A stretch of DNA of 64,000 bases from Methanosarcina vacuolata Z-761 (GTDB taxonomy: Archaea; Halobacteriota; Methanosarcinia; Methanosarcinales; Methanosarcinaceae). The stretch lies in the NCBI RefSeq assembly GCF_000969905.1, contig NZ_CP009520.1, positions 868,001 to 932,000 on the forward strand, written 5' to 3'. The notes under the pieces are model-generated. The model ran no database searches. It was given only the letters and a program-made list of their open reading frames with translations, and was not told the DNA's origin. Position numbers and translations under genes: made by a program. Below, one piece after another: positions 3,985-31,315 of this stretch (position 1 is the first letter of the stretch; the number at the start of each line of letters is the position of its first letter).

Positions 3985-4222
3985 TATCTCCCGGTTCTTT
4001 GATCACATAGTCTCCAATCCGGGGCAGAGGCAGTCCGCTTCTCAATTTGATAACTATCCATTCATCAATGACTTCTTCTAGGTTTCTGCGACATTCTTCA
4101 AGTGTCTTGCCTGTAGCCCATACACCCTCAAGTTCGGGAACTTCTCCATAATAAGGTTCTTCATCATCGATTATTTCGTATTTTGCTTTCTCAAGAGCTG
4201 CGTGGATGTACTGGATGAGCAT
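3971..4222 (-). CDS. hicB: HicB-family antitoxin
   Basis: An 83-residue partial-RNase-H-fold antitoxin. It carries the typical YYGEVPELEGVWATGKTLEECRRNL pattern followed by the helix with EVIDEWI. HicB binds and blocks HicA and usually represses its own promoter. No separate DNA-binding domain is obvious beyond the short C-terminal tail. The ATG at 4222 has a good ribosome-binding site (AAAGGTG). A decayed near-copy of this gene lies at 8219-8401. Confidence 0.87.
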   Translation of the reverse strand: MLIQYIHAALEKAKYEIIDDEEPYYGEVPELEGVWATGKTLEECRRNLEEVIDEWIVIKLRSGLPLPRIGDYVIKEPGDIAVV

Positions 4223-20763: not shown

Positions 20764-20858
20764 GTACACAAAGATGCAAAAGCTAAACTAGAAACAAAAG
20801 TTGGAATATTATAAAATAAGAATTTATAACACATATTAAAAAAATGTGGTAAATAATG

Positions 20859-20932
20859 TGGGCCCGCTGAGATTCGAACTCAGGATCCCCGCCGTGTAAA
20901 GGCGATGTCATGACCGACTAGACCACGAGCCC
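20859..20932 (-). tRNA. tRNA-Val (anticodon UAC)
   Basis: The minus strand folds as a full tRNA: acceptor GGGCTCG/CGGGCCC with discriminator A, D arm GTC...GAC, anticodon stem TCGCC/GGCGG around loop TTTACAC (anticodon TAC), and T arm CTGAG-TTCGAAT-CTCAG. No intron; CCA is not encoded. Confidence 0.95.
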
Positions 20933-21417
20933 ATTTTGCCTGTATTTTCAGAATCGCTCTAAGAGCAAGACCAAAATGTCACTAGTTATATATATCTCTT
21001 TTGTTAGGAGAGAAAAACAGGATCTATCTGAAAGTTAGTTATTCCATTAAATAAAATCCATATTCACTAAATAATATTATAATTATATCAAATTATACTG
21101 GTATTACTTTATAAATTAAGAAATTGTACAAAAAAAGGAAATACTATTACATATAATTCTTTTTTTCGTAAAAGGGGAATTATAACTTACTTATATGCCA
21201 GATTTTTACTATATATCCTAAACTATATAATACAAAAGACTCGTTTAATTTTTTATTTCTAGACTTAAATATTTATCTACACAAATAAAAGAAAATTAAT
21301 GAATACTTTGTGTTATAAAACCCAAATTATTCTATTTATACTCCCTACTGAAAGAATTCCGAATGGATATAAAAGCTAAGCAAAATATATTTATATGAGA
21401 TTAGCATGAAATAACTT

Positions 21418-21488
21418 GTGAGCGGGTCTCTATTTTATATGATAACCCCAACACCCAACACCCCAATTCATACTCCCAACCCGCTCAT
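21418..21488 (+). ncRNA. candidate clamp-stem small RNA, copy 1
   Basis: A closing stem GTGAGCGGG (21418-21426) pairs with CCCGCTCAT (21480-21488). The interior is C-rich and unstructured, with CCCCAA repeated. A TATA-like box tatatttatat is centred about 27 bp upstream of the first G, exactly where an archaeal promoter should be. T-rich sequence follows the stem. C-rich single strands could pair with Shine-Dalgarno sequences; the opposite strand has several G runs. It is the sister of the element at 21828. Confidence 0.6.
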
Positions 21489-21827
21489 CTTATTCTCACA
21501 AAAATAGAAATATATATTTAGGGAAACAATTCAAAGACTCAAAGTCACGAGTTTCTATATAAGCACTGGACACTAAATCGTAATCTCTGGCTGGGGATAT
21601 GGTACTGGAGACTCATTTAGAAGCCAACTTAGTTATTTAATGATTTAGAAAAGGGAATTTGGATAGGTTCAGTACTTAACTCTACCTGATAGTCATTTAT
21701 AGACTTTTAATCCTGAAAGTAGAATTTCTAGCTAAAATAAAAAACCGTAAACTATAAACTGGTAATTATAAATCATCAACTATATAAATGAAAAGCTATT
21801 TATAAGATGAATAAGTATTCATCTCGA

Positions 21828-21918
21828 GTGAGCGGGTCTCTTTTCCATAGTATAACCCCAAAACAATATCCCCCAACTATTTCCCCCAACTATTCCCCAA
21901 ACTCTCCAGCCCGCTCAC
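21828..21918 (+). ncRNA. candidate clamp-stem small RNA, copy 2
   Basis: The same design 410 bp downstream: GTGAGCGGG (21828-21836) pairs perfectly with CCCGCTCAC (21910-21918). The first 34 nt match copy 1 in length and largely in sequence (GTGAGCGGGTCTCT...TAACCCCAA). The interior has four CCCCAA or CCCCCAA blocks. TATA-like tatttata is centred 28 bp upstream. The rest of the interval 20933-22157 shows no gene. Confidence 0.62.
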
Positions 21919-22157: not shown

Positions 22158-24176
22158 TTAGAAGTCGAAAAGCGTTTTTTGTGTTTTCGACTCGACTTTT
22201 TTAGGAGTTTCGCTGGCTTTGACCTCAGGTTTTTCAGCCTTATCTGAAACTTTTTTGATAATGGGTTCACTGTTTATAGATTTCCCGACTCTGGATAATT
22301 CGGGAGAAATGCTGTTTTCTGTCGGTTCGGAGTCAGAAAAGGCTTCCTTCTCAAAGGTCTCGGGCAGGGATGAAGAATTCTTAGCCTTAAGATTATCGTG
22401 TTCAGGTAAACTGAATGTAAGGCTATCAGATTTGAGCCCAATCTCATCAATCCCTGCCTGATCCTGCTCCGGCATAAGAGTATCGGAAGTAAAATTATCA
22501 GGTTTTAGGTTTTCCGATTTTAGGTCCTCCGATGTCAGGTTCTCCGACTTTAGGTTCTCCGATTTTAGGTTATCTGATGTTAGGTTCTCCGATTTTAGGT
22601 TTTCCGATTTTAGGTTCTCCGATTTTAGGTTATCCGGTTTGAAGGTATCAGAAGCATCATTTTCCGAGTTCGTAGTTTCTGGAGAAATCTCAGATAAGAC
22701 AACAAAACCAAAGTTAAGAGTCTTCTGCCCGCCCTGGGAAGTCCTGGAGTCAGGAACTTCAAGCCCCTCAGAATGTTTCTCAGCTTTTTCTTTCGAGGTT
22801 TTAACCGAGAAACCAGAAGGGTCCTCTTTACTATTGCCTGAGGGAGCAGGAGCCCTGAAAAACTCAGTTCCATCAGCTTCTTCTTTTCCTTCAAGGAGAA
22901 GTTCCTGCGCCCTGTCATAGATTTTCTGCAGCTTTTTACTGGCTTTTGCGCTACCCGAGAGATATATCAATTCCTCAAGTTCAAGCTTGAGGTCTGCAGT
23001 AATTTCAACTGCGGATTCTTCATTCTTTAACATATGAGAGTAAAGATCCAGAAGGTTATTTCTTGAATAGCGCATGGACTCGAAGTTGTGTTCTCCAACT
23101 TTAGAAGCTATATTATCCCTGAGGTCTCGTTTCGAACGTATCTGCCCCATTTTCTTCCAGAGAGAAGGAGGCTGGTACTTAATAAATCCGGGGTAGGGCC
23201 GTGTCTTTGAGACTGCAGTTCCGCAGACCATCAACATGCTCGCATACCTCCACATCCTATAGTTCTGGCGTTTTTTTACGCGCCCAAGATAGAGATCAGC
23301 CCTGGAGAGATAACCAAAGCCAGTTTTTATATCCTCAAGATTTCCATCTTTAGAGGCGTACTGGACAGGCAGGTTTTCATCTATCCAGTGTACAAGGTCT
23401 TCAGGGCTTTCATCAAGCCCGCGAGCTACTTCCAGCGCCTTTTTACAGTCCGTGCTCTTAAATATTCTCTGCATCGCCTTGAAGATGTTTTCCTTGACGT
23501 CTCTGCCTGAAGTGCTGATGTCCTCAACTTCCAGAGTTTTTCTCCCTGTAGCCGTAGCCTGAAGGTCGTTGATTGCACTTCTTAGATCGCCTCCCGCCCC
23601 TTCAGCGATTTGCTGGACTGCATCCATACTGCATGAAATTTCCTCGCTCTCGCATACCTTCTTCAAAGCAGGAACCATTGAGCGACTCTGCACTGAGCCG
23701 AACTTTATTTCCATACAAAGATTCCGGATAGTGGGAGTCAATCCATAAACGTCGTTTGCAATCAGCACTATGGGTTGAAGCGTACTCTTTATAATTCCTG
23801 CAATAGCCCGCATTCCACCCCTGTCTGCAGTCCCGTGAATATTGTCCGCTTCGTCCAGGATAATCAGGCGTTTTCCTCCAAAGAGGGTATTCATTGAAGC
23901 TGCCGATCCAGCAATCTTTTCAATAACACCTGCAGTTCTCTGGTCACTTGCATTGAGTTCAATGACTTCCCAATCCAGATCACGGGCAAGAGCGTGGGCA
24001 GTAGAAGTCTTCCCTACTCCTGCAGGCCCATGAAGGATCACTGCCCTTCTCTCTGGAATGCCTGAAAGCCATTTCTCAGCCCAGGTCCGCAAATCCTGTA
24101 CCGCCTTCCTGTTCCCTACAATCTCCTTCAGGGTCTGTGGACGGTATTTCTCAGCCCATTCAATTGCCAACGTCAT
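22158..24176 (-). CDS. rfcL: replication factor C large subunit
   Basis: Large subunit of the archaeal clamp loader that opens PCNA on primed DNA. The AAA+ core is complete: AEKYRP start, Walker [10 protein letters not shown], Walker [10 protein letters not shown] and sensor 1 VLIANDVYG, followed by the RFC collar to about residue 440. The last 230 residues are a low-complexity tail with a degenerate pentapeptide LKSEN repeated about ten times (DNA unit 15 bp, 22497-22640). It ends in a PIP box, QKTLFDF, for PCNA binding. A second PIP-like QKTLNFGF lies before the repeats. The ATG at 24176 ([13 protein letters not shown]) is preferred over a TTG 15 bp upstream. Confidence 0.93.
22497..22640 (-). 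repeat. 15-bp coding minisatellite in rfcL tail
   Basis: About ten units of gattttaggttctcc-type sequence (plus-strand view) encode [15 protein letters not shown] and related pentapeptides. Variation is at single positions only, so expansion is recent. Confidence 0.85.
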
Positions 24177-24654
24177 CTTAAACCATACCAATAAAAAAAG
24201 AACTCATTCTTAACTCTATACATTTTAATTTCTTCATTATGTAATAATCTTTATCCCTACAATCCTCTGATACCGATTTTTAAATAACAATGATAAATTT
24301 ACACTTTGATATGTATTAAAGTCTTTTTGCTCCCATAAAAACAATACCTTCAATTGCCAGAACAAATTTAAAAAGAAAACCTGTTATTCCTCCCTCCTTC
24401 CGTCCCTATTACCAGCACTCTCCTTGGCTTTAGCCCGCCAATACTTATAATCAACCATTAAAACAAAAAAACTCAATTTGTATACTCTTTGGGATTCGAA
24501 AATCAGTTCCTCTAGCCCATAATTCAGCCCTCTTGAGCGAAAGAAGTGAGAGAAAAGGGCACCGTCCTCCCGAGAGGGGACTCGGGGGACAAAATTAATT
24601 AATGATCGTGTTTGTACTTCTTTGAACTACTTAAAATCTTACACAACAGTCAGG
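24177..24654. other. divergent promoter region rfcL / mtxX
   Basis: 478 bp between divergent genes. It is AT-rich, with no gene and no striking repeat; it must hold the promoters of both units. Confidence 0.5.
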
Positions 24655-31228: not shown

Positions 31229-31315
31229 GTGAACGGGTATAATTTCCTCATGGTTAGTTTTTGTAGTTTATTAGGGTGTGATCTTGTAGATGTGGTCCAG
31301 AGCATGCCCGTTCAC
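31229..31315 (+). ncRNA. candidate clamp-stem small RNA, variant
   Basis: GTGAACGGG (31229-31237) pairs perfectly with CCCGTTCAC (31307-31315), enclosing 69 nt. Relative to the stems at 21418 and 21828 (GTGAGCGGG/CCCGCTCAC) one G-C pair has become A-T on both sides. The interior is not C-rich and does not align. A TATA-like atttaataaa is centred about 20 bp upstream. Confidence 0.4.

Follow-up and report, generated by a model that had tools for sequence, protein, structure and literature searches.

Two predicted small-RNA genes beside rfcL

The 64,000-nucleotide window analysed here (positions 868,001 to 932,000 of contig NZ_CP009520.1 of Methanosarcina vacuolata Z-761) contains two C-rich, clamp-stem small-RNA elements, a 71-nt element A at 21418-21488 and a 91-nt element B at 21828-21918, both on the + strand. 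They are flanked on one side by a tRNA-Val(TAC) gene (20858-20932, - strand) and on the other by rfcL, named from its translation as the large subunit of replication factor C (22158-24191, - strand). The starts of A and B are separated by 410 bp, and both elements carry the common closing stem described in an earlier note on this DNA. Folding revealed a 10-bp clamp, GUGAGCGGGU/(A or G)CCCGCUCA(U or C), around an almost unpaired interior. In A, folding and stem alignment place the 5' arm GTGAGCGGGT at 21418-21427 and the 3' arm ACCCGCTCAT at 21479-21488, with G-U as the first pair; in B, the 5' arm lies at 21828-21837 and the 3' arm GCCCGCTCAC at 21909-21918. A U-run adjoins the 5' arm of each element (21433-21436 in A, where it may be a site for an Sm-like protein, and 21841-21844 in B), followed by the C-rich interior (21446-21478 in A and 21856-21908 in B), which folding predicts to be single-stranded, as previously proposed. 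The interior of B is built from repeated CCCCCAACTATT units that differ in number among species.

Both elements fold far better than expected from their composition, with z-scores of -4.4 for A and -6.0 for B and 0 of 200 shuffles folding equally well. Across the 4.56-Mb genome their stem pattern occurs twice, the two occurrences being A and B, with none for the reversed control, and covariance model R2 (described below) matches them at E=3.1e-7 and E=6.4e-6, respectively. The first 34 nt of A and B share 29 identical positions, fewer than the 34 matching nucleotides first counted. TATA boxes are indeed found upstream of both, each reading TTTATA (21390-21395 for A and 21799-21804 for B, + strand) and ending 22 and 23 nt 5' of the respective stem. 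Comparison with Rfam 15 revealed no family over A or B at the gathering threshold or at E<=10, with tRNA the only family above the gathering threshold, and the elements in representative loci of the wider family likewise had no credible match at E<=10, in agreement with the original impression that no annotated family fits. Boxes typical of C/D or H/ACA guide RNAs were not evident by eye in the elements, which also lacked any Rfam match of this kind.

Conservation within Methanosarcina

A and B elements were identified in 23 of 31 Methanosarcina genomes using the strict pattern and in 26 of 31 using BLAST, mostly as the same tandem pair; this is the opposite of the lack of conservation between close relatives that the earlier note had named as grounds for abandoning the elements. 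Both members are usually present, at a distance that is generally 0.25-1.5 kb and rarely ~2 kb. Among seven close relatives, sequence identity was 94.8% for the body of A and 98.4% for the body of B, compared to 72% for the spacer and 59% for the upstream region. A third paralog, C, lies 3' of B in seven genomes, mostly with GUGAGCGGA/UCCGCUCAC replacing GGG/CCC. The distance from the end of TTTATA to the first stem base is 21-24 nt in each of the 56 copies of A, B and C, a fixed spacing that predicts a transcription start at the stem start, give or take a nucleotide or two. Stem pair 10 is U-A in some copies and C-G in others, and pair 1 can be G-C, G-U or A-U; because the G-U pairs, which are frequent, can be explained only on the C-rich strand, this strand is the one predicted to form the RNA.

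B copies also vary in length. Two have fewer CCCCCAACTATT units (G014, L014 1754-1827; G016, L016 677-749), one has an additional unit (G024, L047 1115-1217), and the C-runs differ by one base among species.

A covarying family across the class

Covariance searching, which had been suggested for Methanosarcina, recovered members in that genus and well beyond it. At E<=1, model R1 detected relatives in 11 of the 14 genera of the family Methanosarcinaceae, and an exact search for the core among named genomes yielded Methanolobus, Methanomethylovorans, Methanococcoides, Methanosalsum, ANME-2 cluster and Methanoperedenaceae records. In alignment A5, five of the ten stem pairs were changed on both sides, compared to 0 of 500 shuffles and 0 for all slid controls, and compensatory clamp changes were also present in alignment A3. 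We built covariance model R2 from A5 and searched 393 genomes sampled from the phylum, revealing matches in 84 genomes with 1-6 members each. Every one of these belongs to the same class, with no match outside it in the sample, and together they span the Methanosarcinaceae, relatives of ANME-2 and Methanoperedens, and one other family of the class, whose members mostly retain ACCCCCACUCCCCUACCCGCUC. The description of A and B as a tandem pair therefore holds for most Methanosarcina but was too narrow in scope, since the pair belongs to a class-wide family.

Family members share a clamp of 9-13 bp, a loop of ~30-80 nt, C-runs and a U-run close to the 5' arm. Loops are nearly G-free and mostly open, and they usually end in ACUCCCC(A/U)A(C) directly before the 3' arm. 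Stems vary (GCGAACGGG/CCCGUUCGC, ACGAGCGGG/CCUGCUCGU and AUGGGCAGG/CCUGUCCAU, among others), while the loop core barely changes. Tandem pairs also occur in genera g7 and g12, and genus g11, which includes the Methanolobus records, carries 3-5 members per genome. Short members in g11, g14 and g12 adjoin rfcL as A and B do, and in g3 rfcL is found within the same locus; because of these shared neighbors, the rfcL-side locus is probably ancestral.

Covariation, promoter spacing and conservation thus agree in identifying A and B, as far as sequence can tell, as genuine small-RNA genes of a conserved, multi-copy non-coding RNA family. The retention of a clamped, C-rich loop across the class suggests that this family probably does something important.

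Further paralogs in the M. vacuolata genome

The M. vacuolata genome contains at least seven predicted family members, A and B among them, with three kinds of clamp around the same interior. Relaxing the stem pattern revealed paralog D (G000:C2:2989873-2989945, + strand; L089 3974-4046), a 73-nt element with two CCCCCCACTCCCC blocks that is virtually invariant in sequence among nearly all of the Methanosarcina listed. When we searched for complements of the D core, we obtained further family members rather than targets. These additional paralogs comprise E (near 1844195, - strand) and F (near 2004158), both with a GGGCAUCUGG stem, G (near 23366), with a UUGAACGGGCGAG/CUCGCUCGUUCAG stem, and H (near 2820170, + strand), with a GGCAUCUGAG stem; all four have TATA-like sequences upstream. 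Paralogs E, F and H are each present in at least two of eight Methanosarcina genomes examined, while the core sequence of G was found in all eight, in two of them as part of an H-type clamp. The ACUCCC core and the U-run recur in members with different stems.

Several related features were seen in passing. E and F have an extra small hairpin, AAGGTC...GACCTT, 5' of the U-run, and a subfamily with GGGCATCTGG-type clamps is found in L226 (near 1196-1234, - strand), L204 (near 4158-4198, - strand) and L228 (near 1671-1752, + strand). In L227, two core-complement-like sites, TTGGGTAGTGGGGGT at ~1511 (+ strand) and CTGGGTCGTGGGGGT at ~1617 (- strand), face each other on opposite strands ~100 bp apart. 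Within the window, a further clamp-stem candidate lies at 31229-31315 (- strand), where GTGAACGGGC...CCCGTTCAC enclose a conserved interior, CTCTGGACCACATCTACAAGATCACACCC, downstream of a TATA-like sequence. This region is conserved in 27 of 31 Methanosarcina genomes, is not rich in C-runs and is matched weakly by R2 (E=0.012); it is possibly a distant family member or a separate small RNA.

Relation to known small RNAs

A close likeness in organization is to LhrC1-5 of Listeria, grouped with RsaE/RoxS/FsrA as UCCC-motif sRNAs. The LhrC RNAs are likewise multi-copy paralogs with several redundant unpaired C-rich sites and a UCCC core (PMC4132741), with lhrC1-4 together at one locus. The archaeal family displays comparable traits (at least seven copies, a U-run and a C-rich loop), but its sequence is unrelated, a single clamp surrounds one large loop and its promoters are of the TATA type, so the comparison is one of analogy only. 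CsrB and RsmZ also have several paralogs and repeated short unpaired motifs, but their motif is GGA rather than C-rich and a CsrA partner is a trait of those systems. Among archaeal RNAs, M. mazei sRNA41 is an intergenic sRNA proposed to mask ribosome-binding sites in polycistronic mRNAs (PMC5867862); its targets are ACDS sites, whereas ACDS ribosome-binding sites are not favored by A, B or D (see below). M. mazei sRNA154 and sRNA162 resemble A and B in being conserved, structured intergenic RNAs of Methanosarcina, but they are longer (130 and 191 nt versus 71 and 91 nt), and sRNA162 has three stem-loops and is reported only in close relatives, whereas the clamp family spans the class. The multiple, highly conserved intergenic cold-box sRNAs of Methanolobus psychrophilus R15 are similar by description, and the genus carries several family members per genome.

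It is possible, if somewhat improbable, that members of the family have already been detected without being described as such, namely among the intergenic sRNAs that carry numbers in M. mazei or the set of nine cold-box sRNAs of M. psychrophilus, which would be compatible with any of the mechanisms considered below. Differential RNA-seq in M. mazei found many intergenic sRNAs (cited in PMC5867862), nine sRNAs of M. psychrophilus are described as highly conserved, induced by cold and bearing a 'cold box' (PMC5378194), and the 3-5 members in each g11 genome would provide candidates. Against this, the family sequences were not found in the open-access literature searched. What is new is therefore the description of a family and not a first detection.

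Target searches and candidate mechanisms

We searched for pairing partners at 872 translation starts, located in four blocks covering 1.26 Mb of genome, and compared each loop to 12 dinucleotide shuffles. The loops of A, B and D paired no better than their shuffles and no more often at Shine-Dalgarno sequences, and their strongest single pairing sites were likewise no better. The proposal that the C-rich blocks pair with GGGG-type ribosome-binding sites has therefore found no support so far, with the qualification that dinucleotide shuffles retain the C-richness that would itself constitute the seed, so that this control does not exclude short-seed pairing. GGGGAGT, the complement of ACUCCCC, was found at 5 of the 872 starts, and the ACUCCCC core is not a plain anti-Shine-Dalgarno sequence. 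At GGAGG sites of the first cdh operon genes, pairing energies of A, B and D fell mostly in the middle of the genome distribution, with the best pairing (B at cdhB) at the 9th percentile; the ACDS operon is thus not a favored target. Searching eight genomes for the 13-nt core with at most one mismatch revealed, besides family genes, scattered sites that were mostly confined to a single genome, and no conserved extended complementary site was found outside the family's own genes.

One C-rich stretch without an evident clamp, TTTTCCTTACAGTCCCAAACCCCTTAGCAACCCCCTTCCCCACTCCC, lies at C2:295107-295153 (- strand). A, B and D pair more strongly with the strand opposite TTTTCCTTACAGTCCCAAACCCCTTAGCAACCCCCTTCCCCACTCCC, which falls within the leader of the 295242 gene, than with any other partner.

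We infer that the family functions in trans, and the best mechanism is a trans-acting regulator that uses C-rich seeds, perhaps together with an Sm-like protein on the U-run, to which we assign a probability of roughly 0.5. Each gene would be transcribed from its own TATA promoter, starting at or within 1-2 nt of the first stem base. The clamp would tie the ends of the RNA together, presumably protecting them, and keep the loop open, while the U-run may recruit an Sm-like (Lsm/SmAP) protein. Short conserved C-rich seeds would then bind G-rich sites of several mRNAs by base pairing, mostly around the translation start, so that translation is repressed or redirected; having several paralogs would provide dosage and slightly different target sets. 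Multi-copy C-rich sRNAs such as LhrC of Listeria work in this way. The U-run, the open, C-rich and G-poor loops and the variable repeat units of B all count in favor of this mechanism, and in LhrC, RsaE and FsrA a UCCC motif has been associated with binding to the Shine-Dalgarno sequence (PMC4132741). In a survey of archaea, the only species to have three Lsm proteins were Methanosarcinales (PMC10221803), which is no more than suggestive of an Sm-like partner for the U-run. Class-wide conservation of the loop is greater than would be expected for a seed that tracks changing mRNA targets, however, and to that extent argues against mRNA pairing.

A rather unlikely alternative draws on this same conservation. 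Here, the clamp would present the C-runs, along with the U-run, as an array of docking sites for a conserved RNA-binding protein, either sequestering it or serving as its scaffold, much as CsrB and RsmZ do except that the motifs are C-rich rather than GGA. Such a role is consistent with a loop core that is almost constant across the class and with unrelated stems, with repeated CCCCCAACTATT or CCCCACTCCC units that differ in number, with conserved extended complementarity being restricted to the family's own genes in the eight genomes and with a pairing preference no higher than that of shuffles at the 872 starts. A short mRNA seed can equally be conserved, however, the last of these tests is based on composition and leaves room for short-seed pairing, and the partner protein is only hypothetical. 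An extended form of this idea, which we regard as unlikely, is a class-wide archaeal ribonucleoprotein in which the clamp RNA would dock a putative RNA-binding protein, possibly one of the extra Sm-like proteins of the Methanosarcinales, through the U-run and ACCCCCACUCCCC, acting as a global regulator by sequestering this protein or loading it onto mRNAs rather than as an ordinary antisense sRNA.

Two readings that dispense with a non-coding RNA are far less probable than any of the above. That the elements act as DNA (a protein-binding palindrome, a terminator or a quadruplex former) without any functional RNA would fit the often invariant stem sequence and the four G-runs on the strand opposite B, but this is very improbable given the asymmetric G-U wobbles, the compensatory changes, the fixed TATA spacing, the open loops of 30-80 nt and the occurrence of members at few fixed loci, not scattered as for a mobile repeat. 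The idea of a quadruplex on the opposite strand, also raised in the earlier note, is weak and is disfavored because the G-U wobbles and TATA boxes place the RNA on the C-rich strand. A plasmid-borne element was likewise rejected, with PLSDB yielding no match. Least probable of all is a dual-function or small-protein RNA, in which a small leaderless frame would begin with GTG at the first base, of the kind reported for M. mazei sRNA154 (PMC11456600): GTG at the predicted start site opens frames of 29 and 37 codons in A and B of M. vacuolata, but we rejected this reading because no frame is conserved, with element lengths varying freely modulo 3, frames and stop positions differing among species (from codon 6 to >50) and several members from other genera starting with ACG or another non-start codon.

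Implications for archaeal RNA regulation

To our knowledge, reports on M. mazei sRNAs have so far described conservation within the genus. The clamp family can be traced through the methanogens and ANME-2 methane oxidizers of an entire class, has several paralogs per genome and supplies a model for covariance searches, well-defined gene ends, promoters and a core short enough to mutate. Post-transcriptional control in major producers and consumers of methane would thereby become testable, and the family would make it possible to determine whether Sm-like proteins act for archaeal sRNAs in the way that Hfq does for bacterial ones.
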